Shown piece after piece: positions 270 through 10,024 of a stretch of 10,024 nucleotides of DNA; within the stretch, counting starts at the first letter, position 1; the number at the start of each line of letters is the position of its first letter. The notes below the pieces were generated by a model. That model searched no databases, was not told the origin of the DNA, and worked only from the letters and a program-made list of their open reading frames with translations. Made by a program: the position numbers and the translations under genes. Source of the DNA: Pavlovales sp. CCMP2436 (lineage: Eukaryota > Haptophyta > Pavlovophyceae > Pavlovales); contig MU631344.1 in the NCBI GenBank assembly GCA_026770615.1, forward strand, positions 30,031-40,054, written 5' to 3'.

Positions 270-415
270 AACAACCCCAATAACAACACTACTCCTCTTG
301 CTACCTATGCACGCGTGCGCTGCTGGAGCATAACAACACTAGTCATGTTACTACTCATGATAACAACCCTCACAACAACACTACTCCTTCTAATGCATGC
401 GTGCGCTCCAGCATG
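270..415 (+). repeat. Diverged direct repeat upstream of phosphatase exon 1
   Basis: The segment 270-331 recurs as 363-415. Both share ACAACCC, then an AACAACACTACTCCT core, then GCGTGCGCT, then AGCAT. The second copy runs into the proposed first exon at the bases just before and including its ATG. The first copy has no open frame behind it. This is the same kind of exon-edge duplication seen in the introns of both genes. It leaves open that an intron acceptor (CTCCAG ending at 411), not a transcription leader, precedes this exon. Confidence 0.6.
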
Positions 416-459
416 TCGGCTGCTTCCGCTTCGCTCGACGCGGCGGCTGCGGAAGCCGG
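413..459 (+). CDS. Phosphatase exon 1 (proposed start exon)
   Basis: ATG at 413 opens MSAASASLDAAAAEA, then GG at the donor GG|GTACCC, followed by a long T/C-rich stretch. The two leftover bases plus the first base of exon 2 make a Gly codon, so the join is phase-compatible. Base composition shifts sharply to GC here, as in the other exons. There is no conserved motif, so the support is composition, phase and donor only. An acceptor CTCCAG at 406-411 means it could instead be an internal exon. Confidence 0.45.
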
Positions 460-3400
460 GTACCCTTTTTTTCCTTTTTCTTTTTTTTGCTCGTCCTCAC
501 TGCGGTACAGGGATGAACTCGTTCCAAATTTAGACCTATGATTATTATTGTGATGATAATGAACTGCTACGCCCAATTATCATCGCACGTGCCGAGTCTG
601 CACAAATACAACGAGGCAGCAATTCAAGAACGCAGCCGACCCAGCTAGTGTACTTACGCGCAAGTGTACTTTGGTGCAGAATGAGGCCATCCCAGAGTCC
701 CTCCCCCCCCTCCCCTTTCTCCCCCTCCCTCTTTCTCCCCCTCCCGTCCGGACGCAGCACCCTCCCGCCCTCAGACGATTTGACTCGGACTCCCTCTGCC
801 CGTCATTTCTGAACCTTATATTTCTGATAGGGATTCAAGTTGGGCGTCTAACTGTTCTGAATGTTGTGCTGGTCTGAGCGCTACGTCGCCCATTGCCTGC
901 TTATATATTCGAATCTTTTGTGTTCTGAATAAGATGACGATTGAAGCGACTCTTCGCAGGTGCCGAGCAGATCATTATCATTATCATCATCATCGTTATT
1001 ATTATTGTCGTTGTTGTTGTGGTTGTGGTTGATCATTTTGTAAACCCATATGTATATATGTATATATGTATATATGTTTATATAGCCAGTGTGGGGTTCC
1101 GATATTTATATATGTATACATATACATGTACATGTACATATACATATATATACATGTACATGTACATATATATATACTGTACATATACATGTTGCTCAAG
1201 GCTGCTGCATTCTTTCCTTTTCTTTACATATTTTTGGTTATTTACCATTAATCATTTACCATTTACCATTTATTATCTATCATTTATCATTTTTTCTTTC
1301 TTTTTTTGCTCCAGCCTGCCTGCGGGCACCTCTGCCGGTCGCTCTGCGGTGGTGAGGGCCTTGGCGCAGCGCGACGCTGTGCGGACGCAGATGGGCGTGT
1401 CGGCAGTAAGCGGCAAGACAGACGCTTTGCAGATGGTAATGTTCCAAGTGATCGAAATCTAAAGCTCTGTGAAAAATCGCAATTAGACGGACGCGCTGCG
1501 GATGGCGATGATTAGTTGTTGCTGCTGTTTTGTTGCTGTTACTGCTCTTGCTGTTACTGTTGCCAATGTGGATATTATTCTCATTCCTCTGTCTCTTCTT
1601 CTCGTTGCTATTATTAACATTAATATTCTGATTCCTATCGTGATCGTTGTGATTATGATGATTGTTAACAGTCATATTGTTATCCTTCTTATGATGCTAG
1701 GTCCAGCGCGCGCCGCCCCCGCCACCGCTGCCCGCACTGCACGCAGGCTCTGTCCGCGCACAGCCCCCCGCTGCTTCTGCCTCTCTCCCTCTCTCCGCCG
1801 CGCTGTCCGGGCAGCAGGTGCGCGCTCTCTCTCTGCGCGTGGAAGGAGCCTCCGAGGCGTCTCCCGGCCGAAGGGGCGCAGACCGCATGGAGGACAGGAC
1901 AGGTGTGTGCGCCTGCGGCTGTGGGTGGGTGGGTGTGGGTGGGTGGGTGTGGGTGCGTGGGGCGCAGACCGTATGAGGAGACGTTTTTTCTTTTCTTCTC
2001 CTCTTCTTCTTCTTCTTCTTCTTCTTCTTTCTACCACTAACTGTTTATGCGTTGCCATTGCTGTTCTTCCTCAGTCCTGCGCTGCCACCGAGACGCCTCC
2101 GAGCGCCCCAGCCTGGTGCTGCTCCTCGACGGGCACGGGGGAGAGGCCTGCGCCGAGCACTGCGCACTCGCCATCCCTACCGCCGTCGTGAGCCGGCTGC
2201 AAGCCAACAGCGCCAACGGCAACACCGACTCTTCCCCCATGGCAGGTGCGCTGTCCGCGGACCAACTCTGCCTGGACGCGCTCAAATTCGCATTCGCCAC
2301 GGCGCACTCTGACTGGTAATCATTCTCACAATCCTACTCACACTCAAACTCACAATAATGCTCACAACCGTACTGCTGCTGCTGCTGTTGCTGCTCATCG
2401 TAGTCATCATCATAAAGCCTGATCCGCATTCGCCTCGGCGCACTCTGGTTGGTGATCACACTCATAACCATCACCATAATCAATACTCATAAAAACAGGA
2501 ACAAACTTAATAATGATATTAATTATGATAGCAATAATGATATTAATAATGATATTAATAATGATAGTAATAATCAATACGAACAACAACAACAACAATG
2601 AGCACACAGAAAAGCATTCACAATCACAATCACAAAAAAGAACAACAGTCACAACCATCATCACAACCATTGTAACAAACTAATTGTAATTTACCATCAT
2701 CACAACCATTGTAAGTTACCATTGTTCTTAACTATTGTAACTAACTAATTGTAATTTACCATCATCACAACCATTGTAAGTTACCATTGTTCTTAACCAT
2801 TGTAACAAACAAATCATCATAATAACTCATCATAACAATACCGCGCGCAGGCTTTCGAGTGCGCGCTGCGACGACTCGGGTTGTGCCGCCATCGCCTGCC
2901 TCCTCACCGACGGGGGCGGCACAGGGGGGGCGAAGCTGCACGTGGCGTGCGCGGGCGACTGCTTCGCCATGCTCGTGCGCGACGGGGAGGCGGTGCGCGT
3001 CTCCACGGCGCACGTGGCGGAGGAGCGGGCGGAGCGGGCGGCGGTCGAGGCGCGCGGCGGGAGTGTGACGTGCGGCAAAGACGGTCAGCTCTTCTTCTTA
3101 TTTCACCTTTTCCCCATTTTTTTCTCATTGTGATTCTTATGGCTGTAATAGCAATCATTGTCAGGGTCCCATTCTTCCCAAAAACTCCGTGCGCATTGGC
3201 GACTTACACACACACACACGTGCGCGCGCACGCGCACACGCACACACCACTTGCAGGTCCTGTCGAAGGCGTAGGGCTGCGCGGGCTGGCTGTTGCTCAT
3301 ATGATTGTTCTGCGTGTTTGGAGAGTAGGCAAGATGCTAATTCTATATTACATATACATATTGGAGAGTAGGCAAGATGCGCGTGGCGGGGCGCATCCAG

Positions 3401-3715
3401 CTCTCGCGCGCGCTGGGCGACCGCGCGCTGCAGGCACTCGGGCTGACGGCAGAAGCCGAGCTGCTGAGCGTGCAGCTGCAGCCGGGGAGGGACCTGCTCC
3501 TGGTGGTCGGCTCGGACGGGCTGCTCGAGAAGATGAACGAAGCGGACATCGCGAGGGCCGCGTGCGCCACCGTCCGCACGGCCGACCTCATCGCGCGCAG
3601 GCTTGTCTCCGACGCGATTGCCAAGGGCACGGAGGACAACGTCAGCGCCGCCGTGCTCGTGCTCAGCTGGATCGGGCAGGTGCCCACCGCCAGCGGCGCG
3701 GCCGCGCGCGCGTGA
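413..3715 (+). CDS. PP2C-family (PPM) serine/threonine protein phosphatase, six exons
   Basis: Mg/Mn-dependent protein phosphatase that removes phosphate from Ser/Thr of target proteins. Proposed exons are 413-459, 1315-1435, 1701-1902, 2075-2315, 2851-3083 and 3372-3715. The joins have phases 2, 0, 1, 2 and 1, which all keep the frame, giving 1188 nt including TGA, or 395 residues. Family motifs appear in order: GADRMEDRT (M119-T123), LLLDGHGGE (D142), DDSGCAA (S213-G214), VACAGDCF (G239-C241, where most relatives have GDS), GRIQLSRALGD (S293-D298), VVGSDGLLEK (D330) and AKGTEDNVSAAV (D370-N371). The expected metal ligands D121, D142, D330 and D370 are present, so the enzyme looks active. 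No transmembrane segment is seen. About 118 residues of Ala/Pro-rich sequence precede the catalytic core and could be a regulatory or targeting extension. The family call is firm. Exon 1 and the start of exon 3 are the weakest parts. Confidence 0.9.
460..1314 (+). other. Phosphatase intron 1, repeat-rich
   Basis: This 855-bp stretch has no credible coding. It contains a polypyrimidine block (699-760, C/T-rich), a 9-bp AGTGTACTT direct repeat (about 650-670), an ATC/ATT/GTT trinucleotide tract (970-1031), and a tract of TATATG and TACATGTACA units (1048-1192) that is rich in palindromes. It ends in the T/C-rich acceptor TTTTTGCTCCAG at 1303-1314. A weak resemblance to the exon 2 acceptor edge (TTGCTC-AAG then GCTGCTGC) lies at about 1191-1210. 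Confidence 0.6.
1315..1435 (+). CDS. Phosphatase exon 2
   Basis: Begins after a strong polypyrimidine acceptor (TTTCTTTTTTTGCTCCAG) and ends ATG|GTAATG. It encodes an Ala/Arg-rich segment ending QMGVSAVSGKTDALQM. The frame is open, and both ends match the phases of the neighbours (2 in, 0 out). The GVSAVSGK stretch faintly recalls the first strand of PP2C domains, but the better match to that strand lies in exon 3. The donor edge is echoed 69 bp downstream. Confidence 0.6.
1416..1441 (+). repeat. Exon 2 donor edge, original of the 1485-1510 ghost
   Basis: The real edge 1416-1441 and the intronic copy 1485-1510 agree at 20 of 26 ungapped positions, offset 69. In the exon frame the real copy reads T-D-A-L-Q-M and the ghost T-D-A-L-R-M. 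The donor GT is GC in the ghost. Confidence 0.75.
1485..1510 (+). repeat. Ghost of exon 2 donor edge in intron 2
   Basis: Copy of 1416-1441, described there. It lies within intron 2 (1436-1700), which otherwise holds a CTG/GTT-rich and ATT-rich low-complexity tract (1514-1690). Confidence 0.75.
1701..1902 (+). CDS. Phosphatase exon 3 (MEDR motif)
   Basis: Ends ATGGAGGACAGGACAG|GTGTGT, giving GADRMEDRT, the first metal-site motif of PP2C. The frame is open back to 1701, directly after TGCTAG at 1695-1700; the TAG is also a stop in this frame. Alternative acceptors in the same phase are CAG ending at 1814 or 1817, behind a CTCTCTCC tract. They would trim a Pro/Ala-rich leader and leave VRALSLRVEGASEASPGRR, which fits the first strand of the domain. 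The 3' end is firm. The 5' end is uncertain. Confidence 0.8.
1903..2074 (+). other. Phosphatase intron 3 with ghost, G-rich tract and CTT run
   Basis: Contains repeated GGGTGGGTGT (1920-1959), able in principle to form a G-quadruplex; a ghost of the exon 3 edge (1959-1980); then TTTTTTC and a (CTT)n polypyrimidine tract (1983-2031) before the acceptor CTTCCTCAG at 2074. Confidence 0.75.
1959..1980 (+). repeat. Ghost of exon 3 donor edge (1873-1894)
   Basis: GGGGCGCAGACCG is identical at 1873-1885 and 1959-1971, offset 86. It is followed by C/T, a shared ATG, and AGGA with one missing base. In the exon frame the first difference (CGC to CGT) is silent. The ghost lacks a GT donor. Confidence 0.8.
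2075..2315 (+). CDS. Phosphatase exon 4 (DGHGG motif)
   Basis: Starts after CTTCCTCAG and ends GACTG|GTAATC. It encodes LRCHRDASERPSLVLLLDGHG and onward to FATAHSDW. The GTC made across the junction joins MEDRT directly to V-L-R-C, as PP2C proteins require. DGHGG carries the bridging metal ligand D142. Confidence 0.92.
2289..2322 (+). repeat. Exon 4 donor edge, original of the 2425-2458 ghost
   Basis: These 34 bp run from the last 27 exon bases through the donor and recur at 2425-2458 with 30 of 34 identical positions and no gaps, offset 136. Confidence 0.9.
2425..2458 (+). repeat. Ghost of exon 4 donor edge with intact GT donor
   Basis: 30 of 34 bases match 2289-2322. In the exon frame it reads A-F-A-S-A-H-S-G-W against A-F-A-T-A-H-S-D-W in the real exon, and keeps TG|GTGATC at the donor position. 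Read-through from the real exon meets TAA at 2317, so this cannot simply extend exon 4. Confidence 0.9.
2681..2797. repeat. 65-bp tandem minisatellite
   Basis: A block starting TAATTGTAATTTACCATCAT at 2681 repeats at 2746 (period 65) with about 52 identical bases per copy. A partial related unit (CCATCATCACAACCATTGTAA) precedes it at 2656, and a partial one follows to about 2810. Confidence 0.9.
2851..3083 (+). CDS. Phosphatase exon 5 (SG and GD motifs)
   Basis: Begins after CCGCGCGCAG and ends AAAGACG|GTCAGC. The split Trp codon joins HSD-W to LSSARCDDSGCAAIACLL. The exon carries the conserved SG turn, the VACAGDCFAMLVRDGEAV strand pair (Cys where Ser is usual), the HVAEERAERAAVEARGG segment that matches the DH...E..R...GG region, and SVTCGKDG. 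Confidence 0.92.
3084..3371 (+). other. Phosphatase intron 5 with CA/CG repeats and duplicated acceptor
   Basis: Polypyrimidine run near 3085-3125, alternating purine-pyrimidine tract of CA and CG units (3205-3247, Z-DNA-prone), a false acceptor CTTGCAG at 3250-3256 followed by an in-frame stop, then two copies of the acceptor block. Confidence 0.8.
3318..3337 (+). repeat. Exact duplicate of exon 6 acceptor edge
   Basis: Twenty bases at 3318-3337 are identical to 3361-3380, which contain the exon 6 acceptor AGTAG|GC and the first bases of the exon. The 43-bp offset is not a multiple of three. Use of the upstream copy would shift the frame of everything after it. Confidence 0.95.
3372..3715 (+). 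CDS. Phosphatase exon 6 (catalytic C-terminal half)
   Basis: Begins GC-AAG-ATG after GAGAGTAG, completing a Gly with exon 5, and ends at TGA 3713-3715. It carries RVAGRIQLSRALGD, the SDG metal site (D330) and GTEDN (D370). The acceptor lacks a clear pyrimidine tract, but it is the in-phase AG that retains the K-M-R-V-A-G lead-in. The last nine residues are Ala-rich. Confidence 0.93.
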
Positions 3716-3839
3716 GCGGTTCGCTTGGAGGCCCATAGAGTGGCCCACTCGGCGTAACTAGATGGTATTATGGCCTGGAAGTGATGGTACTGAGCTCGCA
3801 GATGTTATTAAACTGCGCTTAAATTTCATTTGGCAGGTC

Positions 3840-3883
3840 AATAAAATAGTTACTAGTTAGTTAGTTAAGGTGCTACTAATAAA
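3840..3883 (+). promoter_or_regulatory. Possible polyadenylation signals of phosphatase gene
   Basis: AATAAA occurs at 3840-3845 and 3878-3883, 125-165 bp after the stop. The flank is AT-rich, with TTAGTTAGTTAA between them. Whether this organism uses AATAAA is unknown. Confidence 0.35.
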
Positions 3884-3987
3884 GTTTAATAACAAACACG
3901 TCTAAAATTTGAGAGGGGCGATGTCATTGCTGATGATTGTAATAGTAAAAGTAATGGTAGTGAGAGTAGTAATAGTTAACAAAATAA

Positions 3988-4311
3988 TCCGACTACATCT
4001 TCAAGTACGCTGCTGCTCTCGCGCCGCAGTACGTCGCCCTCGCTGTCACAGATATCGACCAGTATATTTCCAATCGGAAATAACGCTGGGCGGGACATGT
4101 GATGCGCATGGACATGTCAAGACTTCCTCGCATGTTCATGACATCGTGGGGGGTCAACGCACCGCGACGCAACGGGCGACCGCTGATCTCCTACGGACAC
4201 GACCTAACTCGCGAGCTCAACAACGTCGGCTTCAACCTTGACGGGCAAGCAGTCGGCGTCCGTCCGATTCTCAGCGCTCGGAAGCAGAAGGAAAGTCGGC
4301 TAGACCCCTGA
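3988..4311 (+). pseudogene. Broken C-terminal fragment of a retroelement reverse transcriptase
   Basis: Reading frame 1 gives an open stretch from 3988 ending DIDQYISNRK, an in-frame TAA at 4081, then RWAGHVMRMDMSRLPRMF followed by MTSWGV and RRNGRPLISYGHDLTREL and a TGA at 4309. The R-W-x-G-H-V-x-R-M ... R-L-P-R ... W ... G-R-P pattern is the tail that follows the polymerase domain in many non-LTR retrotransposon proteins. The TAA sits where that family usually has a hydrophobic residue (R-L-R-W), so a single-base nonsense change is likely. No polymerase catalytic motif lies upstream; the preceding bases are stop-rich. This is a 5'-truncated, inactivated copy between the two host genes. Confidence 0.75.
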
Positions 4312-4351
4312 GCCTATTGAACCAGCTTTTTGGCCTATTTAATAGGCTGCG

Positions 4352-4384
4352 GTCGGCACGCTGTAGCCGACGCACCTCGCGTCG
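4352..4384. other. Two overlapping, mutually exclusive hairpins
   Basis: GTCGGC (4352-4357) pairs with GCCGAC (4366-4371). CGACGC (4368-4373) pairs with GCGTCG (4379-4384). The arms share CGAC, so only one can form at a time. Perfect 6-bp arms with loops of 8 and 5. Confidence 0.5.
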
Positions 4385-4442
4385 GACACCCATGGTCACC
4401 ACACATTGCCGTAGACGCCACGACATGGAGATAGCCAGGATT

Positions 4443-4461
4443 CAATCTGACAATCAGATTG
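4443..4461. other. Perfect 8-bp hairpin
   Basis: CAATCTGA (4443-4450) and TCAGATTG (4454-4461) are exact complements around the loop CAA. It lies between the retroelement tail and the small ORF at 4529. Confidence 0.6.
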
Positions 4462-4528
4462 GCGATGCGACCTCCCGGTGGCCGATTATGACCTGGGGAA
4501 TTCAAAGAAAAAATTTGAAATTTTCAGC

Positions 4529-4693
4529 ATGGCAGACGCTGACCCTACGTCGCTGCCGCTCGAGCCTGAGCCGCTCGCCGAGGGGCCGCTTGACATCGGA
4601 GACTCGACGAGCTGTATCACCTGCACCTCGGCCACGCAGGAGGCTATGGCGAGGTTTTCGCTCGCTCCCCACGACGCTCAAAGCACCAACTGA
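4529..4693 (+). CDS. Small uncharacterised ORF, 54 codons
   Basis: ATG at 4529 (context TTCAGCATGG) opens MADADPTSLPLEPEPLAEGP and continues acidic, with Thr/Ser/Cys (SCITCTSATQ), to TGA at 4691. The frame is also open upstream to 4478. No domain recognised. It sits between the palindromic direct repeats and may be a remnant of the same mobile element. It could be chance. Confidence 0.25.
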   Translation: MADADPTSLPLEPEPLAEGPLDIGDSTSCITCTSATQEAMARFSLAPHDAQSTN

Positions 4694-4730
4694 CTCGTGC
4701 CTATTCTGAAATTTGCCTATTCAATAGGAA

Positions 4731-4906
4731 TGTTTTTTTAGTTAAAATATTAATTTAATTAGTAATATTTAATTAGTTATACAGAATGAGGCTTTTTCTT
4801 TGCCTCTTGTGACTCTACCCTCCAAAGCTCAGCTCCGGAGAACGAACTATTATGTGGCTAGATTGCTAAGACTGAGACGGACTGACGGTGTGTACTGTGT
4901 GACATC
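4731..4906. other. AT-rich spacer, nothing recognised
   Basis: A T run, then a TTAAT/TTAGTAATATT block (4740-4783), then unremarkable sequence with no repeat or gene-like signal. Confidence 0.6.
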
Positions 4907-5341
4907 ATGATGAGTGACGAGGCCATGCGCATGAACGGCGAGGAATCGCGTCGAGCTTTTGGTGACGAGGTAGATCACGAGGGCAATCAGTGCAATCACA
5001 AACGCAGCTGCCTCCCGTATGATCAACGCGAGATCGTCGACCTTAGCAGAGATAGCGTCGACCTTGGTTGTGAGCGAGCCGATCGGGTGGCGACACGCGA
5101 ATCGATAAAGTTGATGGCACCAGACGATGCGCCGACCGCTGCAACAACAACGGTTGAAACAACGCCCACAAAAGACAGGAGCTGCTCCACAGTTACCGTG
5201 GTTGAACTCGTCAGCAGCACGCGCGAGGCAGCACGTCCCGCCACGCGCGTGACACGGACAAGAGGCAGCGGGAGCGCGCCAGCCGGCGCCGAAGCGGCAG
5301 CACGCGGCGGCAGGACGCGCGTTATCCTCCGCACCGGCTAA
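4907..5341 (+). CDS. Uncharacterised 144-codon ORF (strand uncertain)
   Basis: Uninterrupted plus-strand frame from ATG to TAA, starting MMSDEAMRMNGEESRRAFGD. It is hydrophilic, acidic at the N-terminus and Arg/Ala/Gly-rich at the C-terminus. I recognise no family. The opposite strand of the same DNA gives a more protein-like reading in two frames (hydrophobic stretch, heptad-like linker, second hydrophobic stretch), so this ORF may be the shadow of a decayed antisense gene. Neither strand can be preferred with confidence. Confidence 0.3.
   Translation: MMSDEAMRMNGEESRRAFGDEVDHEGNQCNHKRSCLPYDQREIVDLSRDSVDLGCERADRVATRESIKLMAPDDAPTAATTTVETTPTKDRSCSTVTVVELVSSTREAARPATRVTRTRGSGSAPAGAEAAARGGRTRVILRTG
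4940..5334 (-). pseudogene. Possible frameshifted two-helix membrane protein remnant
   Basis: Minus frame from 5334 contains VEQLLSFVGVVSTVVVAAVG then ASSGAINFIDSRVATR. A one-base shift near 5085 continues as IGSLTTKVDAISAKVDDLA, then LIIREAAAFVIALIALVIYL and VTKSSTRF. That is a hydrophobic helix, a polar heptad-like linker and a second hydrophobic helix, arranged as in small hairpin membrane proteins. There is no ATG in the minus frame and a stop lies just before 5334, so it is at best a fragment. Purely an inference from the reading pattern. Confidence 0.3.
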
Positions 5342-5653
5342 CGCCGGGTATCAATCGGACAGCCCCAAACCCGCCTCGCCAAATAAGACCCTCTAAAATC
5401 TGAACGTCGTCGCGCTTACACGCTTGGAGTCGACTGCTTCTGTGACAGAATGTCTGCAACCCACTGCCTGCTGCCCCCCTTTCTTATAGCAAGTCATAGT
5501 TTAAAAATCTGTCTTTCGAAGTTCAAAGTAAGAAATGGACATCTATCTTGGGCAGCGCTGTATTGGGGATTGGAAATCTAAGGGGGTTTCTTGCATCGAA
5601 CAAAGTGGGCCAGACGAAGGAAGCTCATTGAGTTAGTTATGTCATGAAATTGG
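5342..5653. other. Intergenic spacer, nothing recognised
   Basis: Mixed-composition sequence without an ORF of note, tandem repeat or RNA-gene signature that I can support. Confidence 0.6.
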
Positions 5654-5657
5654 TATG
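5654..5657. repeat. Putative target-site duplication, left (TATG)
   Basis: TATG abuts the left inverted repeat and recurs at 5959-5962 immediately outside the right one. Confidence 0.6.
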
Positions 5658-5958
5658 CCCAAGGGTGGACTCAAGTTATAGCTTCAGGCCCCGGGCGGGC
5701 CCCGCCGGCTAGGCGAATAAAATAATTGGGCTCTTTTTCAAGATTTTTAGGTCTTAAAAAAAGATTGGGCGTTAATCAAGTTTCTACAGGCTAAAAAGAT
5801 GCGCTCGGGCTAACGCTTAGATAAGCGAACACGGTGGCTTGCGTCTAAGCCCCGCCGCCACGCAGTCAGCCGTAGGCCGACTGCCAAAATAATCTAGTTT
5901 TCAAGATAATAATAGTGACCGTATTATCCGTATACAGCTAGTCGGGTCCACCCTTGGG
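5658..5958. mobile_element. MITE-like element with 13-bp terminal inverted repeats
   Basis: CCCAAGGGTGGAC at 5658-5670 is the exact reverse complement of GTCCACCCTTGGG at 5946-5958. TATG precedes the left end (5654-5657) and follows the right end (5959-5962), as expected of a 4-bp target-site duplication. The 301-bp interior has no ORF, so it is non-autonomous. It contains a GC-rich block (5690-5712), a CGCTTA/TAAGCG hairpin (5814-5827) and a 10-bp-arm hairpin with one mismatch (5862-5884). CCC...GGG ends with a 4-bp duplication recall piggyBac-type elements, but that family inserts at TTAA, so I leave the superfamily open. Confidence 0.75.
5862..5884. other. Hairpin inside the MITE-like element
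   Basis: GCAGTCAGCC (5862-5871) faces GGCCGACTGC (5875-5884) around a GTA loop; nine of ten positions pair. Confidence 0.5.
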
Positions 5959-5962
5959 TATG

Positions 5963-6901
5963 CCCTTTTACCGCCGCGGGAGCGCAGTCTCTACGCCCAG
6001 GTGGCCCCGGGTGTCAGCATCTGAGCGTCACTCTGTTGAGCTCTAGCGTCACCTTGCGGTGGTAGTTGCCTAGATTTCATCGCGCGCGCGCGGCTGCAGC
6101 AGATGCGGTCGGAGTGGGCGATGCGTGCGTTTGGTCATGACCGTCCCTCCTCATCGTCTAAACTTATTTTGAATGGAAATGGGATGAGCCTCTTTCCAAG
6201 GACTATGCCCTAGTATTTCTTGGCCCTCGGAAAGAAGTGCGTTCGGGGCCTCTTTCCGGCAACCGCAGCCAGTAGTGATATTGCGGATAACGGGCAGGAC
6301 CCCGCGGGCCCCTGCCCTAAGTTATGCCCTGCTGGTAGAATAATAGTCCAGTTTGCCGATTTATTATCTATTAACGGCCGTGTTGTCCCTGGCAGAATTT
6401 TTGGTAAATCACATCTAGTTTTCTTTTATTCCTACAGCTAACTACTCAATCGTAAATAGCGCCGAAATAGAAAGTCATGCGCCGAGAAAAAACCGCTAAG
6501 TGTCCGATCTCAAGTGAAATCATTGATGTAGGGAGTTGTATTGATGTAGGGAGTTTCGTAAATCTCAGTAAAGTCGGTTACTGCGTTTAAGCTACGTGGA
6601 TTATTCCACTATTTGTAACTGCAAGAAAGCCCATGGGTTTGAGAGCTTAAGACAGCTTCAAGCGACTCCCGAGCGCCCTTTTTCGAGGTCGAGAAATATT
6701 TTTTTCAGGGATCGAGAGCCAGATTCTAACCCACACGACTCTGCCTGCTGCTCCATCTTTCCATCACAATGCAAGTACTGTCGTACACGTATTTTGAAAA
6801 TTATCAATTAAATAATCAGTGTGCCGCTGCACGCAGCATTGGAGCCCGATCCTATCTAGAGACTTCTTCAGAGCATGGGTGCGCACATTCTAACTGTCAT
6901 A
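5963..6901. other. Convergent intergenic region, mostly featureless
   Basis: Holds a (CG)n run near 6080-6091, a GGGCAGG/CCTGCCC hairpin around a CCCGCGGG core (6292-6317), a CCTCTTTCC repeat (6189-6197 and 6248-6256) and the 18-bp tandem at 6522-6555. The 73- and 71-codon plus-strand frames at 6220-6441 and 6596-6811 show no recognisable protein. Confidence 0.6.
6522..6555. repeat. 18-bp tandem duplication
   Basis: ATTGATGTAGGGAGTT occurs at 6522-6537 and exactly again at 6540-6555. Confidence 0.9.
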
Positions 6902-7141
6902 TCACTCGTCGCCTTCCATGATCTCGACGGGCGTCACGGCCATCTCCGCCTCCTCCGCAGGCTCCGCCTCCGCCACGCCGTCGGTGGCCATGAGCGCGGT
7001 GATCCGCCGGGCGAAGGCCGCGGGGTCCGCGATCTCGTAGCCGGACGTGACGGCGGCCACCTCGTAGAGCAGCTGCGCGTACTCGCGCGTGGCCTCGGCG
7101 CCCGGCTGCGTCTTGACGAGCAAGTCCAGCTGACGCACCAC
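6902..7141 (-). CDS. HSP90 last exon (C-terminal dimerisation domain)
   Basis: Acceptor ATAATCAG|GTGGTG at 7142-7143; stop TGA at 6902-6904; 79 codons. VVRQLDLLVKTQ continues AILELNPTHP of the previous exon as in the family, then LLYEVAAVTSGYEIADP and AAFARRITALM, then an acidic tail ending MEGDE. Confidence 0.93.
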   Translation of the reverse strand: MVRQLDLLVKTQPGAEATREYAQLLYEVAAVTSGYEIADPAAFARRITALMATDGVAEAEPAEEAEMAVTPVEIMEGDE

Positions 7142-9732
7142 CTGATTATCAATTTATTAGTTTTTAAGTATTATTGACGCGTGTATTTTAAGTATATGTA
7201 TCCTGCTTCTTCCCCTTCATCTTGATCGAGTCAAACGTGCGCACGAACTGCGTTTCGTCAGGGGGCAGATCTAGTTCTAAGACTGCTCGCTACATTTCAA
7301 GGATTTAGTTCGTGTTCGCGTTGCTCTCAGATGTAAAGAAACAGACTGTAGTGGAGTGTTGTAATCTGTAGTCTTACCGGGTGTGTGGGGTTGAGTTCGA
7401 GGATTGCAGTGGACGCCCCGCCCGGCATGCCGTCCAACTCTTCCGACTGACCCATCGCCACTGCCTGTTTGGGGGGGAGGGGGTGGGTTGAGGAGAGGGA
7501 GAGAGCGAAGGTAAAGCTAGGGCTAGGATGTTCGTTGAGGGCCTAGTCAGCTATGGCTAGGGGTGGTAGAAAAAGCAGAAGCAGAATTACCTGTGCGCGC
7601 ATGAACCTCTCCATCTGCGGGCTCATGCCCCACTGCGGCTGCACGATGGCGGCGGGCGACGAGCGCAGGCGGCGCGAGAGCTCGACCTTGTCCACCTTGC
7701 TGCCCAGAGTCTCCTTCAGGAACGTCAGAGTCGAGGCGAGTGTGGCCTGTAAAAAAAAGAAAAGAAAAAGTGGTTAAGTCTTTTTTGTTTGGGCATCGCC
7801 AGGGAAGAAGAGATGAGATAGAAAACAAAAATAGAACAGCAACTGCAAAAAGAATAGAAAACAGAAGCAAATCTTAGAATTGACCTGGCTCTTGTCGAGT
7901 TTGCTTTAGAAGAAGGAATACGAAAGTGGGGAAGGGGGAGGAGGGGAGAGAGAGAGGGGGGGAGAGAGAGAGAGGGAGAGAGGGAGAGCAGTCACCTGGC
8001 TCTGGTCGTTTGTTTCTTTCTCCTCCTCCGACTCCTCGCCCAGGTCCGCGTTCTGCAAGGGAGGGAGGGGGGAGGGGGAAAGGGGGGGGAAAGGGGGGGA
8101 TTGAGGGATCAGTGTGGGTTATGATTGTACCGATTAGAAAGTGCCCACCAAGGCAGAGGGGTGTGTGCGTGCGCGTGTGTAATATGGGGGGTAGAGGGGG
8201 GCGATCACCTGCTTGGTTGCGTCTACCACTGGGGTGGGGGGGAGAGGAGGGGGGGCATATATGACAGCAATCCTTCTTGCTTATTTGGAATACAATTTCT
8301 TATATTTTTATGAATCTTATGACAACAAATGATGGTGAATTTTATGGCAAGAAGCATGGCGTGCCTGTTTCGCTGCGTCGACGACGGGCAAGTCTTTGAA
8401 CTCACCGATTCCCTGCAGCGCGATCTCGTCCACTGAGTCGAGTGCGTACAACACCTTTTTAACAAGAAATGTAGAATACAATAAGGTATTATTAGTTAAC
8501 ATTATTGAAAGCGTACAGCACCTGTGACGTTCAAATAGATGAGATACAATAAATATATTGTCAGCTATATTGATCTCATACAGATACATCATAGTTGCAC
8601 GTTAGTTACATGATGAGTCGAGCGCGAACGTCATCTGTGATTTTAAATTTTCATCGGCGAGTAATAGTTATATTATTAAAGAAGATAGGCCTCGACTTTA
8701 AATATTAATTATTAATCGGGAGACGCTAAAAACCCAAATCAATAAGAATGTTGGAATTTGGCCCGTGCGCCCTAGAACTGCAAGTCGGGGACGTTCAAAA
8801 AAGGAGGCCTTACACAAATCGATTTTAAACATTAAATTTCAAATGTTTAATTCTCAAATTAAATAATTCAAACAAGAGGGGGGGGCACCTCGTATCCTTT
8901 TGCGGTGAGCGCCTCGAGGACGGGACTGCCCTCCAGCGCCGCCTTGCTCGTGCCCGCCACGTAGTAGACCTGTGGCAATTATATATATTAAGAGTGAGGC
9001 AGAGGAATGTTGCAATATAGGTCAGTCACTCCCGCTCATTCCCACTCCTCAATTAGCATATCCGAAGAATTCGATTTGAAAGGCCGCACCGATGCGTTGA
9101 CCCTCGCATGCCATGCCCGTAAGCCTTCGGGCTGCAAGTCGGGGGACGATAAAAGAACTAAAAAAAAGGCCGCACCTGCTTCTGCCCCTCCGGCATCCTG
9201 GAGACGTACGCCTCCAGCGAAGTGAGCGCACCCGCCTCCATCACCTCCGCCTGATTGTAAAATCAAGATGAACACACATATAATATGAATACAAATACAT
9301 GATTAGCAATCATAATAGTTTTTAATAGTTCTTACAGAGCGTATCCCTTACTCGCCTCCGCCTGCACCGCGAGAAAAGAGAGATAGTCACATCACTTAGC
9401 AATGACAAACAGCAAACGTCACAGTTTAAGTTCGAGGGTGACAGCAGCAGCAGCAGCAGCAGCATCAGCAGCAACAGTATCAGGAGGGCGTAGCACTGTT
9501 ACAGCAGCAACAGCAGCAACAGGAGGGCGTAGCAGGGCGTAGCACTGCTACAGTCGTTATGAACCGACGACAATAAGGGGTCTCGAGCGGAATAAATTAT
9601 AAATAAGTAGCGCACCTCGCTGCCAGCTTCCACCGACTTTGCCTTTGCGAGTGCGACGGCGTTGCGCGAGGACGAAAAGCGCGCCAACTTCAGAAGGGCG
9701 TCCTTGTTGTCCCGGTCCTCAATCAGACCCAC
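6902..9732 (-). CDS. HSP90-family chaperone, 3' half of gene (partial)
   Basis: ATP-driven dimeric protein-folding chaperone. Minus-strand exons, 5' to 3': 9732-9616, 9250-9176, 8969-8889, 8454-8365, 8052-7996, 7746-7591, 7464-7378 and 7141-6902. All join in phase 0 and give about 300 residues. In order they match the end of the middle domain (VGLIEDRDNKDALLKLARFS, SLEAYVSRMPEGQK, VYYVAGTSKAALEGSPVLEA, KGYEVLYALDSVDEIALQ) and the C-terminal dimerisation domain (KVDKVELSRRLRSSPAAIV, GMSPQMERFMRAQ, AILELNPTHPVVRQL, LLYEVAAVTSGYEIADP). The N-terminal ATPase domain lies beyond 10024. The short acidic tail ends PVEIMEGDE: not the cytosolic MEEVD, not an ER KDEL. The compact tail and the K-Q-N-A-D-L-G region look more like organellar (plastid-type) HSP90, but location cannot be settled here. 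About 20 extra residues lie before SLEAYVSRM compared with usual family length. Confidence 0.93.
7142..7377 (-). other. HSP90 intron before last exon
   Basis: Contains a coding-like island at 7202-7265 (minus D-E-T-Q then FVRTFDSIKMKGKKQ) which is not needed by the protein and resembles the start of the last exon. The donor is CCG|GTAAGA at 7376-7377. Confidence 0.75.
7202..7250 (-). repeat. Probable ghost of last-exon acceptor edge
   Basis: On the minus strand ACGCAG|TTCGTGCGCACG gives F-V-R-T-F-D, against CAG|GTGGTGCGTCAG giving V-V-R-Q-L-D at the real acceptor, offset 106. Fifteen of the first 24 bases match and a CAG acceptor is kept. There is no GT donor at the end (CAG|GATACA). It is more diverged than the other ghosts. 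Confidence 0.5.
7378..7464 (-). CDS. HSP90 exon ending AILELNPTHP
   Basis: 29 codons between AAACAG|GCAGTG and CCG|GTAAGA. MGQSEELDGMPGGASTAILE followed by LNPTHP matches the M....ILEINPDHP stretch of HSP90 C-terminal domains. Confidence 0.92.
7465..7590 (-). other. Short HSP90 intron with C-rich acceptor tract
   Basis: 126 bp. On the minus strand it ends in a CCTCCCCC...AAACAG tract; on the plus strand this is a G-rich run (7469-7487). No exon-edge ghost was found here, although a GGGCTAGGATG/ATGGCTAGGGGTGG near-repeat is present. Confidence 0.7.
7591..7746 (-). CDS. HSP90 exon with MERFMRAQ motif
   Basis: 52 codons between TTTTTACAG|GCC and CAG|GTAATT. ATLASTLTFLKETLGSKVDK, VELSRRLRSSPAAIV, QPQWGMSPQMERFMRAQ: the most diagnostic HSP90 segment in the window. 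Confidence 0.96.
7747..7995 (-). other. HSP90 intron with purine tract and exon-edge ghost
   Basis: Right after the donor (minus) lies a pyrimidine tract seen on the plus strand as GAGAGAGGGGGG-type repeats (7926-7989). The ghost at 7882-7910 follows, then AAAAGAAAAG-type sequence on the plus strand, giving the pyrimidine-rich acceptor. Confidence 0.8.
7883..7897 (-). repeat. Ghost of donor edge of exon 7996-8052
   Basis: Plus-strand ACCTGGCTCTTGTCG at 7883-7897 matches 7994-8008 at 14 of 15 positions, offset 111, with similar TTTGxTTxTTT following after a 2-base shift. On the minus strand it reads GAC-AAG-AGC-CAG|GT against GAC-CAG-AGC-CAG|GT in the real exon, so the GT donor is retained. 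Confidence 0.75.
7996..8052 (-). CDS. HSP90 acidic linker exon
   Basis: 19 codons, NADLGEESEEEKETNDQSQ, between CCTTGCAG and CAG|GTGACT. It corresponds to the variable acidic stretch that follows the VDxxKE motif in HSP90 proteins. Confidence 0.85.
8053..8364 (-). other. HSP90 intron with GC donor and micro-exon candidate
   Basis: If the full-length exon is used, the donor is CAG|GCACGC. The acceptor side has a long pyrimidine tract (plus GGGGGAGGGGG and similar, 8056-8099). The interior carries the VDATKQ ghost at 8209-8228 behind a second strong pyrimidine tract and CCCCAG. Confidence 0.7.
8209..8228 (-). repeat. Ghost of VDAAKQ exon edge, possible micro-exon
   Basis: CCCCAG|TG-GTA-GAC-GCA-ACC-AAG-CAG|GTGATC on the minus strand reads V-V-D-A-T-K-Q when joined after a single G. 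The real edge at 8365-8384 reads V-V-D-A-A-K-Q. Here both acceptor and GT donor look good. Splicing from a GTGAGT donor at 8404-8405 (exon 8454-8406) to this 20-nt piece is in phase, but would drop G-E-F-K-D-L-P. Confidence 0.7.
8365..8454 (-). CDS. HSP90 exon VLYALDSVDEIALQ to VVDAAKQ
   Basis: Acceptor GTTAAAAAG|GTGTTGTAC. 30 codons, VLYALDSVDEIALQGIGEFK then DLPVVDAAKQ, keep the normal family spacing between D-E-x-A-x-Q and the acidic linker. The donor would be CAG|GCACGC, a GC donor. The alternative end is 8406, at a textbook G|GTGAGT, continuing into the 20-nt piece at 8209-8228. I prefer the long form because it preserves family length. Confidence 0.8.
8511..8552 (-). repeat. Ghost 1 of exon acceptor edge (VLYA)
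   Basis: Plus GCGTACAGCACC (8511-8522) against GCGTACAACACC (8444-8455), offset 67. TACAATAA is also shared 68 bp apart (8477 and 8545), so the copy extends into intron sequence. On the minus strand GTCACAG|GTG-CTG-TAC-GCT reads V-L-Y-A, as the real GTG-TTG-TAC-GCA does. Confidence 0.8.
8615..8639 (-). repeat. Ghost 2 of exon acceptor edge (ALDS)
   Basis: Plus GAGTCGAG is identical at 8435-8442 and 8615-8622. 15 of 20 bases match over 8435-8454 and 8615-8634, offset 180. On the minus strand ATCACAG|ATGACGTTC continues GCG-CTC-GAC-TCA, A-L-D-S, as in the real exon, then a stop four codons on. Confidence 0.75.
8761..8793. repeat. Sequence shared between two HSP90 introns, copy 1
   Basis: GCCCGT...GCC...CTGCAAGTCGGGG-ACG matches 9115-9148 with six mismatches and one gap. 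Each copy lies on the donor side of its intron. Confidence 0.7.
8889..8969 (-). CDS. HSP90 exon VYYVAGTSK
   Basis: 27 codons, VYYVAGTSKAALEGSPVLEA then LTAKGYE, between GCCACAG and GAG|GTGCCC. Matches the I-Y-Y-L-x-G...S-P-x-L-E-x-x-x-x-K-G-Y-E block of HSP90 middle domains. Confidence 0.94.
9079..9110 (-). repeat. Ghost of donor edge of exon 9176-9250
   Basis: AAAGGCCGCACC is identical at 9079-9090 and 9165-9176, offset 86. This is the intron side of the donor, with GTGCGG on the minus strand. Beyond it CCCTC and GCAT blocks of the exon recur with gaps (to about 9110). The ghost keeps a GTGCGG donor but not the reading frame. Confidence 0.75.
9115..9148. repeat. Sequence shared between two HSP90 introns, copy 2
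   Basis: Partner of 8761-8793; CTGCAAGTCGGGG is exact in both (8778-8790 and 9132-9144). Confidence 0.7.
9176..9250 (-). CDS. HSP90 exon SLEAYVSRMPEGQK
   Basis: 25 codons, AEVMEAGALTSLEAYVSRMP then EGQKQ, between ACAATCAG and CAG|GTGCGG. It matches the SLxEYVSRMKEGQK signature. The first residues (VMEAGA) resemble the end of the previous exon (SVEAGS). Confidence 0.93.
9251..9615 (-). other. HSP90 intron with CAG repeat and weak ghosts
   Basis: Contains a 14-bp echo of the acceptor edge of exon 9176-9250 (CTCGCCTCCGCCTG at 9351-9364, 12 of 14 matching 9240-9253, including CAG|GCGGAGG on the minus strand). Also GGGCGTAGCACTG units and CAG repeats. The donor GAG|GTGCGC is at 9614-9615. Confidence 0.7.
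9441..9555. repeat. CAG/CAA repeat with GGGCGTAGCACTG units
   Basis: An interrupted (CAG)n at 9441-9477, then CAGGAGGGCGTAGCACTGTTA, CAGCAGCAACAGCAGCAA, a second AGGAGGGCGTAGCA, and GGGCGTAGCACTG again (9535-9547). It lies within intron sequence, so it is probably not a polyglutamine tract. Confidence 0.85.
9616..9732 (-). CDS. HSP90 exon VGLIEDRDNKDAL (first in window)
   Basis: 39 codons between CTGTGTAG|GTGGGT and GAG|GTGCGC. VGLIEDRDNKDALLKLARFS matches the LGIIEDxxNRxxLxxLLRF block of HSP90 middle domains. The tail AVALAKAKSVEAGSE has no counterpart in typical members and may be an insertion. Confidence 0.93.
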
Positions 9733-9800
9733 CTACACAGCATTATTCGTGATCGTTATTTATATGAACATTGGTTCATTATTCCTGATGATTATGGGGC

Positions 9801-9839
9801 AGGGCGTCCTTCTTGTCCCGGTCATCGATCAGGCCCACC
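9801..9839 (-). repeat. Ghost of exon 9616-9732 acceptor edge
   Basis: 39 bp match 9695-9733 at 35 positions without gaps, offset 106. On the minus strand it reads VGLIDDRDKKDAL against VGLIEDRDNKDAL; all four differences are at third codon positions. A C/T-rich tract precedes it, but the acceptor AG has become TG, so it cannot be spliced as a normal exon. Confidence 0.92.

Positions 9840-9940: not shown

Positions 9941-10024
<84 letters not shown>
9941..10024. repeat. 84-base T homopolymer at window edge
   Basis: Uninterrupted T to the last base. Read on the minus strand it is a poly(A) followed by HSP90 intron. It could be the tail of a retroposed copy lying beyond the window, an expanded T tract, or an assembly end. 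Confidence 0.95.

Follow-up and report, generated by a model that had tools for sequence, protein, structure and literature searches.

Copies of exon edges inside the introns of a pavlovophyte haptophyte suggest intron growth by short local duplications

Introduction

The systems closest to the one considered here link the origin or the content of introns to duplicated or inserted sequence. In the potato RdRp gene, according to Ma et al. 2016 (PMC4974935), a tandem duplication covers the 3' end of one intron together with the beginning of the adjoining exon, the splice signals are inherited and ten bases differ between the copies. The same paper describes Rogers-type intron gain, in which an AGGT-containing exon segment is duplicated. 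Gozashti et al. 2022 (PMC9860276) present introners as repeated elements by which introns are created, and some of which have target repeats of 3-9 bp. In haptophytes, intron counts vary among species and raise questions of gain and loss, as stated in the D. lutheri genome paper (PMC8379373). Here we analyse a stretch of 10,024 nucleotides from the Arctic haptophyte Pavlovales sp. CCMP2436 (assembly GCA_026770615.1, contig MU631344.1, positions 30,031 to 40,054; the whole stretch is hereafter called the window), in which most introns of two genes, one for a PP2C-type phosphatase and one for HSP90, contain a copy of one of the exon-intron junctions that flank them.

As in the potato case, the duplications of this genome cross an intron-exon boundary and copy splice signals together with the exon edge; unlike that case, which concerns one new intron in one gene, they are found in 25 of 80 sampled introns and lengthen introns that already exist. 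The likeness to Rogers-type gain, as summarised in the same source, lies in a tandem duplication that supplies splice sites, whereas here the duplicated segment includes or adjoins a junction that was already there, and introns at new positions were not observed. Compared with introners, intron content is likewise changed genome-wide, but the spacers that were searched are unique, without a multi-copy family, and the repeats measure about 10-60 bp. One window case, at 9079-9176, is like a retroposon target-site duplication in its dispersed element, A-rich tail, shortened 5' side and 12-bp flanking repeats; this known process covers one of the ten window cases, the searched spacers elsewhere being single-copy. 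Among the titles and abstract openings listed by literature searches, none beyond the potato case gave an account of such exon-edge copies, which is no proof that they are absent from print.

Exon-edge copies in the introns of the window

The window contains 13 introns. Five belong to the phosphatase gene model, which has six exons on the forward strand (413..3715; exons 413-459, 1315-1435, 1701-1902, 2075-2315, 2851-3083 and 3372-3715); its exons 1-5 have the same junctions as in the protein P0153, to which PF00481 is assigned. The other eight belong to the 3' part of the HSP90 gene (PF00183), with eight exons on the reverse strand (6902..9732; exons 9732-9616, 9250-9176, 8969-8889, 8454-8365, 8052-7996, 7746-7591, 7464-7378 and 7141-6902), and comprise seven complete introns and one that leaves the window. 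A partial HSP90 query matched a CCMP2436 protein with 100% identity across 57% of the query. All seven introns between the eight modelled exons are in phase 0, and the eighth is partial, because the assembly continues with N after the window, whose last stretch (9941-10024) is a long run of T.

Introns were compared with their flanking edges in two ways: by an ungapped test anchored at the splice site against dinucleotide-shuffled introns (200 shuffles, repeated with 300; cut-off p≤0.01) and by gapped local alignment of introns against flanking exon edges (300 shuffles, floor p=0.003). In the anchored test, 9 of the 25 window junctions reached p≤0.01, spread over 9 of the 13 introns, and all nine matches outscore every edge of the other window introns that was tried (cross maxima). 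In the gapped test, five of the 25 junctions were at the floor and the junction at 1436 had p=0.010. Altogether, a flanking junction is copied on the same strand in ten of the 13 introns. Nine of these pass the anchored test, and the tenth (1903-2074) passes the gapped test only, with p=0.003; this is the count that an earlier note on this DNA had reached by inspection of the letters. The two candidates that it had considered weak are still weak in the anchored test, with p=0.09 at 1201 and p=0.07 at 7247 (reverse strand, 7224..7250 against the acceptor edge 7118-7144, 106 bp off, not supported), and the intron 7465-7590 has no junction copy under these tests. No inverted copy was found by the anchored test at any of the 25 window junctions.

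Four copies lie in the phosphatase gene, all on the forward strand. The donor edge 1416-1441 recurs 69 bp away at 1485..1510 (DALRM versus DALQM; p=0.010 with 200 shuffles and p=0.003 with 300), and the exon end 1873-1894 recurs 86 bp away at 1959..1979 with a one-base gap (gapped p=0.003; anchored p=0.11, not significant). The donor edge 2286-2328 has its copy 136 bp away at 2422..2464 by the anchored test, a match that the repeat finder carries on to 2483 (76% over 62 bases), and the acceptor edge 3361-3380 has an exact 20-bp copy 43 bp away at 3318..3337 (anchored test), which leaves a spacer of 23 bp.

The HSP90 copies lie on the reverse strand. The anchored test detected a copy of the acceptor edge 9695-9733 at 9801..9839, 106 bp away. 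The two agree at 34 of 38 exon bases; ahead of the copied edge there is a pyrimidine-rich run, and TG is found where the AG should stand. The same test identified copies of the acceptor edge 9241-9253 at 9352..9364 (111 bp), of the acceptor edge 8434-8456 at 8614..8636 (180 bp), of the exon end 8365-8388 at 8209..8232 (156 bp; PVVDATKQ versus PVVDAAKQ) and of the donor edge 7987-8008 at 7876..7897 (111 bp). A weaker second copy of 8434-8456, read by eye as ACAG|GTGCTGTACGC, lies 67 bp off at 8511..8525, and at 8209..8232 the donor of the inner copy is GT whereas the outer donor is GC. Finally, 9079..9090 is a 12-bp direct repeat of 9165-9176, the start of the donor, and flanks a retroposon as a probable target-site duplication; the copy at 9089/9175, one of the nine found by the anchored test, holds a single exon base and is this same direct repeat.

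The distances given beforehand (43, 67, 69, 86, 86, 106, 106, 111, 136, 156 and 180 bp) agree with these results, except that 67 (at 8521) was seen by eye only and one 106 (at 7247) is weak; 111 bp was found twice, at the edges 9361 and 7884. The common orientation of the copies was confirmed by the lack of inverted ones in the window, while their position on the intron side follows from where the search was made. The control with shuffled introns that had been proposed for these copies was run, and junction copies exceed it both here (9/25) and elsewhere (18/128).

Copies in the rest of the assembly

The assembly searched comprises 119 Mb in 703 contigs, the published one 165.4 Mb. From it 65 loci (L001-L065) were taken, several of them partly or wholly N, and a home-made gene finder, trained partly on the window, was run on 55; L002 and L043 (overlap with the window), L033-L036 and L038-L040 (N throughout) and L062 were excluded. 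Fixed splice profiles and a penalty on GC were used, because self-training drifted towards GC donors. Introns outside the window were dropped if they were shorter than 60 bp, contained N, lacked GT or were not AT-richer than their own exons by 5 points.

Outside the window, an anchored copy with p≤0.01 was found at 18 of 128 junctions and in 16 of 67 introns, where about 1/128 is expected; this supports the genome-level process proposed for the two window genes. Five of the 18 junction matches are simple or short-tandem repeats (L012 twice, L026, L030 and L065). Window and remaining loci together, the anchored test gives the 25 of 80 introns mentioned above, inverted copies at 5 of 153 junctions (all five outside the window) and no copy at any of 68 interior pseudo-edges placed 70 bases into the exon. 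Protein-backed genes among these loci include CCT1 (L055) and the HSP90-family locus L064 (PF00183 match); L059 and L051 we take, from their translations alone, to be an Aurora-like kinase and an aminotransferase, respectively. L012 and L026 are copies of a kinase gene on separate contigs, several intron stretches of which are nearly identical while the kinase exon is more different, with indels; this paralogue pair offered no clean empty site for a junction copy.

Duplications inside introns and at their edges

The density of local direct pairs is 0.81 per kb for introns, against 0.45 for intergenic DNA, 0.14 for exons and 0.01 for shuffles. The profile across the junction was obtained by sliding a 36-base probe, a match being an intron copy that beats all 60 shuffles (chance 1/61). 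At the junction itself, matches were obtained for 8 of 36 donor and 10 of 40 acceptor probes; 18 bases into the exon the values are 10/32 and 2/32, at 36 bases 4/31 and 1/30, and at 54-72 bases, pooled, 1/40 and 1/41. In the opposite direction, 18-90 bases into the intron, the pooled values are 9/123 (7%) for donors and 16/114 (14%) for acceptors. The duplication process is therefore active throughout the intron, with a roughly two- to fourfold peak at the edge. Since similar duplications lie inside introns, junctions are partly just the places where duplications stay visible, and a slower decay of the exon copy may account for part of the peak. The proposed recurrent local duplication at splice junctions, with growth of the intron, is supported; it is not strictly specific to junctions, given the direct duplications within introns and in intergenic DNA.

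Fresh copies and copies linked to retroposons

The freshest events show what kinds of duplication are at work. In L059 (810-1014), the last 48 bases of an exon recur twice more at spacings of 79 and 78 bp, with about 30 intron bases between them; the copies are near-identical and adjoin head to tail, without foreign sequence. This locus was kept out of all counts, its copies having been predicted as exon. A 110-bp tandem pair in L051 is about 93% alike across the 60 intron bases that were displayed. A different intron of L051 holds an exact 38-bp copy of the end of an exon, GT included, at a distance of 242 bp. Between the two 38-bp copies lie two pieces of a retroposon 3' end, with scores of 52 and 42 against a shuffled maximum of 23.

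A related association exists in the window, where a dispersed retroposon-like 3' end with an A-rich tail occupies 9088..9160 (forward strand) in an HSP90 intron. It has 631 candidate places in the assembly, 40 of which were scored; copies are also present in L043-L054, and the 5' side of the window element is shorter than in other copies. With its 12-bp flanking direct repeat, 9079-9176 has the features of a retroposon target-site duplication and is the only such case in the window. A single mobile element behind all copies was ruled out, because only one window copy flanks a dispersed element. The 67-bp spacer 9734-9800 and the HSP90 stretch 7142-8460 each match only themselves in the 119 Mb, and no repeat match was found for phosphatase introns 2-5 among 40 scored of 544 candidates, the repeats among these all lying in intron 1.

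The clear instances in which a direct copy takes in exon as well as intron sequence, in register with the splice site, are 2422-2464, 3318-3337, the 110-bp pair of L051 and the copies of L059. The similarity of the exon part forms an age series from 100% (the 38-bp copy of L051; 3318-3337) down to 75% (8209-8232).

Divergence between the copies

Differences were tallied by codon for 20 of 27 matches, the remaining ones (L012 twice, L026, L065, L030, L009 and L014) being left out as repetitive, unsupported or without an exon part. The 62 differences fall on codon positions 1, 2 and 3 in numbers of 12, 13 and 37, and the same copies have 26 synonymous and 28 changed codons. The third-position excess (37/62) looks as if one copy had been under constraint; most of it comes from four copies (8209-8232, 9801-9838, L027 and the donor copy of L055), in which 19 of 22 differences are at third positions. 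Where comparison with relatives is possible (two HSP90 edges and one CCT1 edge), the changed residues sit in the inner copies. Sequencing error should fall evenly over codon positions.

Evidence from spliced products

P0153, which derives from a 3,731-bp JGI contig, is identical to the phosphatase model over exons 1-5, after which it continues into intron 5. A sequence that passes across four introns and then runs into the fifth implies, in all probability, a cDNA origin. In it, the outer edges of phosphatase introns 1-4 are used and the inner copies of introns 2-4 are removed. For CCT1, P0033 agrees with the gene model of L055 at 342 of 344 residues, and both differences are NI (assembly) versus YF at one exon start. 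At this exon start (3229, reverse complement), YF is found in the transcript-like P0033 and in relatives, and the 8-mer AACATTGT is also present 43 bp upstream.

Other features of the window

A second dispersed repeat has a copy in phosphatase intron 1 (817..901, forward strand), with 544 candidate places, 40 of which were scored; its matches are up to 96% identical, and several records carry more than one copy close together. The intergenic stretches 5652-5670 and 5945-5964, separated by about 300 bp, are inverted copies of each other (GGTATGCCCAAGGGTGGAC and its complement) and resemble a small inverted-repeat element. HSP90 intron 7 also contains an open frame (peptide at about 7200-7270); compared with solved structures, it gave nothing beyond weak matches of the repeat type, to a designed PPR protein, and was set aside.

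Origin of the copies

The reading that best accommodates these results, with a probability of roughly 0.68, is that frequent short local duplications, plus occasional insertion with target duplication, add exon-edge copies to introns, the outer copy being spliced while the intron grows. Short local duplications would be frequent in the non-coding DNA of this genome and would leave copies about 40-240 bp apart; some events would be plain tandem duplications and others target duplications around an inserted piece, for example a retroposon end. An event that straddles a splice junction would place a second exon edge and splice site inside the intron. Splicing would stay with the outer copy, because only this one continues into the exon, and with the outer copy in use the protein would be unchanged and the intron longer, so that the duplication would be tolerated; the inner copy would then decay. 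The copies themselves, their statistics, the fresh and the old examples and, for the phosphatase, a protein that agrees with splicing at the outer edges are direct results; we infer the mutational mechanism, that the inner copy is neutral, and the sequence in which the events took place. It is likely that the mechanism itself is ordinary, that is, local duplication and insertion, and that what is unusual is how often its traces are visible.

Several observations weigh against this explanation. In old cases, such as 9801-9839, the spacer is not recognisable as the other half of a tandem unit, and repeats of the 12-bp target type were found, in a crude search, in only two of 11 other retroposon copies. 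Inverted copies outside the window (5/128) are somewhat above chance, and the outside gene models are the product of a home-made finder trained partly on the window, only some of them being backed by protein matches. The third-position share of the differences is 60%, where about 45% would be expected for a neutral inner copy (a rough reckoning; p=0.017 against 0.4545), and this would admit a coding source, although none was seen in the 119 Mb searched. Additionally, among the 16 copies that hold 13 exon bases or more, 10 extend no further than 0-2 bases into the intron, young ones included (the 38-bp copy of L051; L061, with 27 of 29 exon bases), and random breakpoints would not favour ends at the junction.

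These two last points lead to the alternatives. A coding source would be available if the copies came from a diverged second version of the genes (haplotype, homeologue or paralogue), mixed in by recombination or by the assembler. The four copies with nearly all their differences at third positions fit this origin, as does the NI/YF exon start that follows one of these introns in CCT1, whose protein is otherwise identical, and a second version could lie in the part of the published 165.4 Mb beyond the searched 119 Mb. In the searched part, which contains N, a junction plus copy, the spacer between them, both gene regions and the HSP90 family, used as probes, led to no source; no second DNA copy of HSP90 or of the phosphatase was seen (for the latter, among 40 scored of the 544 phosphatase-region candidates), and two of the three other HSP90-family loci, L062 (C80) and L064 (C60), encode visibly different HSP90 proteins. 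Changed codons are about as many as synonymous ones across the 20 copies (28 versus 26), exact copies and plain tandem arrays exist, and at the three edges comparable with relatives the changed residues belong to inner copies; exchange with a diverged paralogue, one of the possibilities raised in the earlier note, thus found no support, and we regard a second version as an improbable source. The end positions, in a small sample, are the strongest hint of a coupling to splice sites. AG|GT nicking, splicing intermediates or introner-like insertion would set the intron-side ends of the copies at the junction, and the exact L051 copy, which ends right after AG|GT, agrees with this, as does the peak of the offset profile. 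The remaining six of the 16 copies, nonetheless, reach 4-13 bases into the intron (the probe spans 14 intron bases), the tandem cases extend further into it, by about 30 bases in L059 and by 60 or more in the 110-bp pair of L051, and the searched spacers are single-copy, unlike introners. Decay of the intron halves in both copies can also produce, and so exaggerate, sharp ends in old copies, though not in the exact one of L051. A process of this kind is doubtful, and it is with little confidence that we would have introns of this lineage grow by insertion, where exon and intron meet, of filler plus an exon-edge copy with its intron-side end at the splice site, as though repair had been set off by splicing intermediates or by a break or nick at AG|GT.

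The published CCMP2436 assembly was built from Illumina data with AllPaths-LG (PMC9756366), from which the contigs analysed presumably derive, and a fault of assembly or consensus might be suspected from the N stretches in the sampled loci, which may be gaps, and from the odd NI/YF site of CCT1. Against such an artefact, the differences are codon-structured and graded in age, from 0 to about 25% divergence; there is no N anywhere in the window, hence none between copies; and a copy-bearing intron stretch is nearly identical on the two separate contigs of L012 and L026, though it is Ala-rich and repetitive. An assembly fault, which had also been suggested beforehand, is therefore very unlikely. 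Least credible is that the inner copies persist because they serve as decoy or alternative splice sites: GT or AG is retained at several copied edges (8208, 7884 and 9361 in the window; L055, L064 and L051), but it is lost at others (TTG at 9839, GC at 1505, GA in L027), only four of the 11 distances listed in the earlier note are multiples of three, and P0153 follows the outer edges of phosphatase introns 1-4; no evidence of use was found.

Implications

The lengthening of introns and the origin of spare splice sites are usually inferred, because their traces vanish quickly. In Pavlovales sp. CCMP2436, where a quarter to a third of the sampled introns (25/80) keep junction copies that range from exact to strongly decayed, the rate and the mechanism of intron growth could become measurable within one genome. 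The copies are also a warning for gene finders, since in the kinase of L059 the home-made predictor took them for coding sequence. If growth coupled to splice sites were true, the introns would preserve, in fossil form, a readable history of how they grew.

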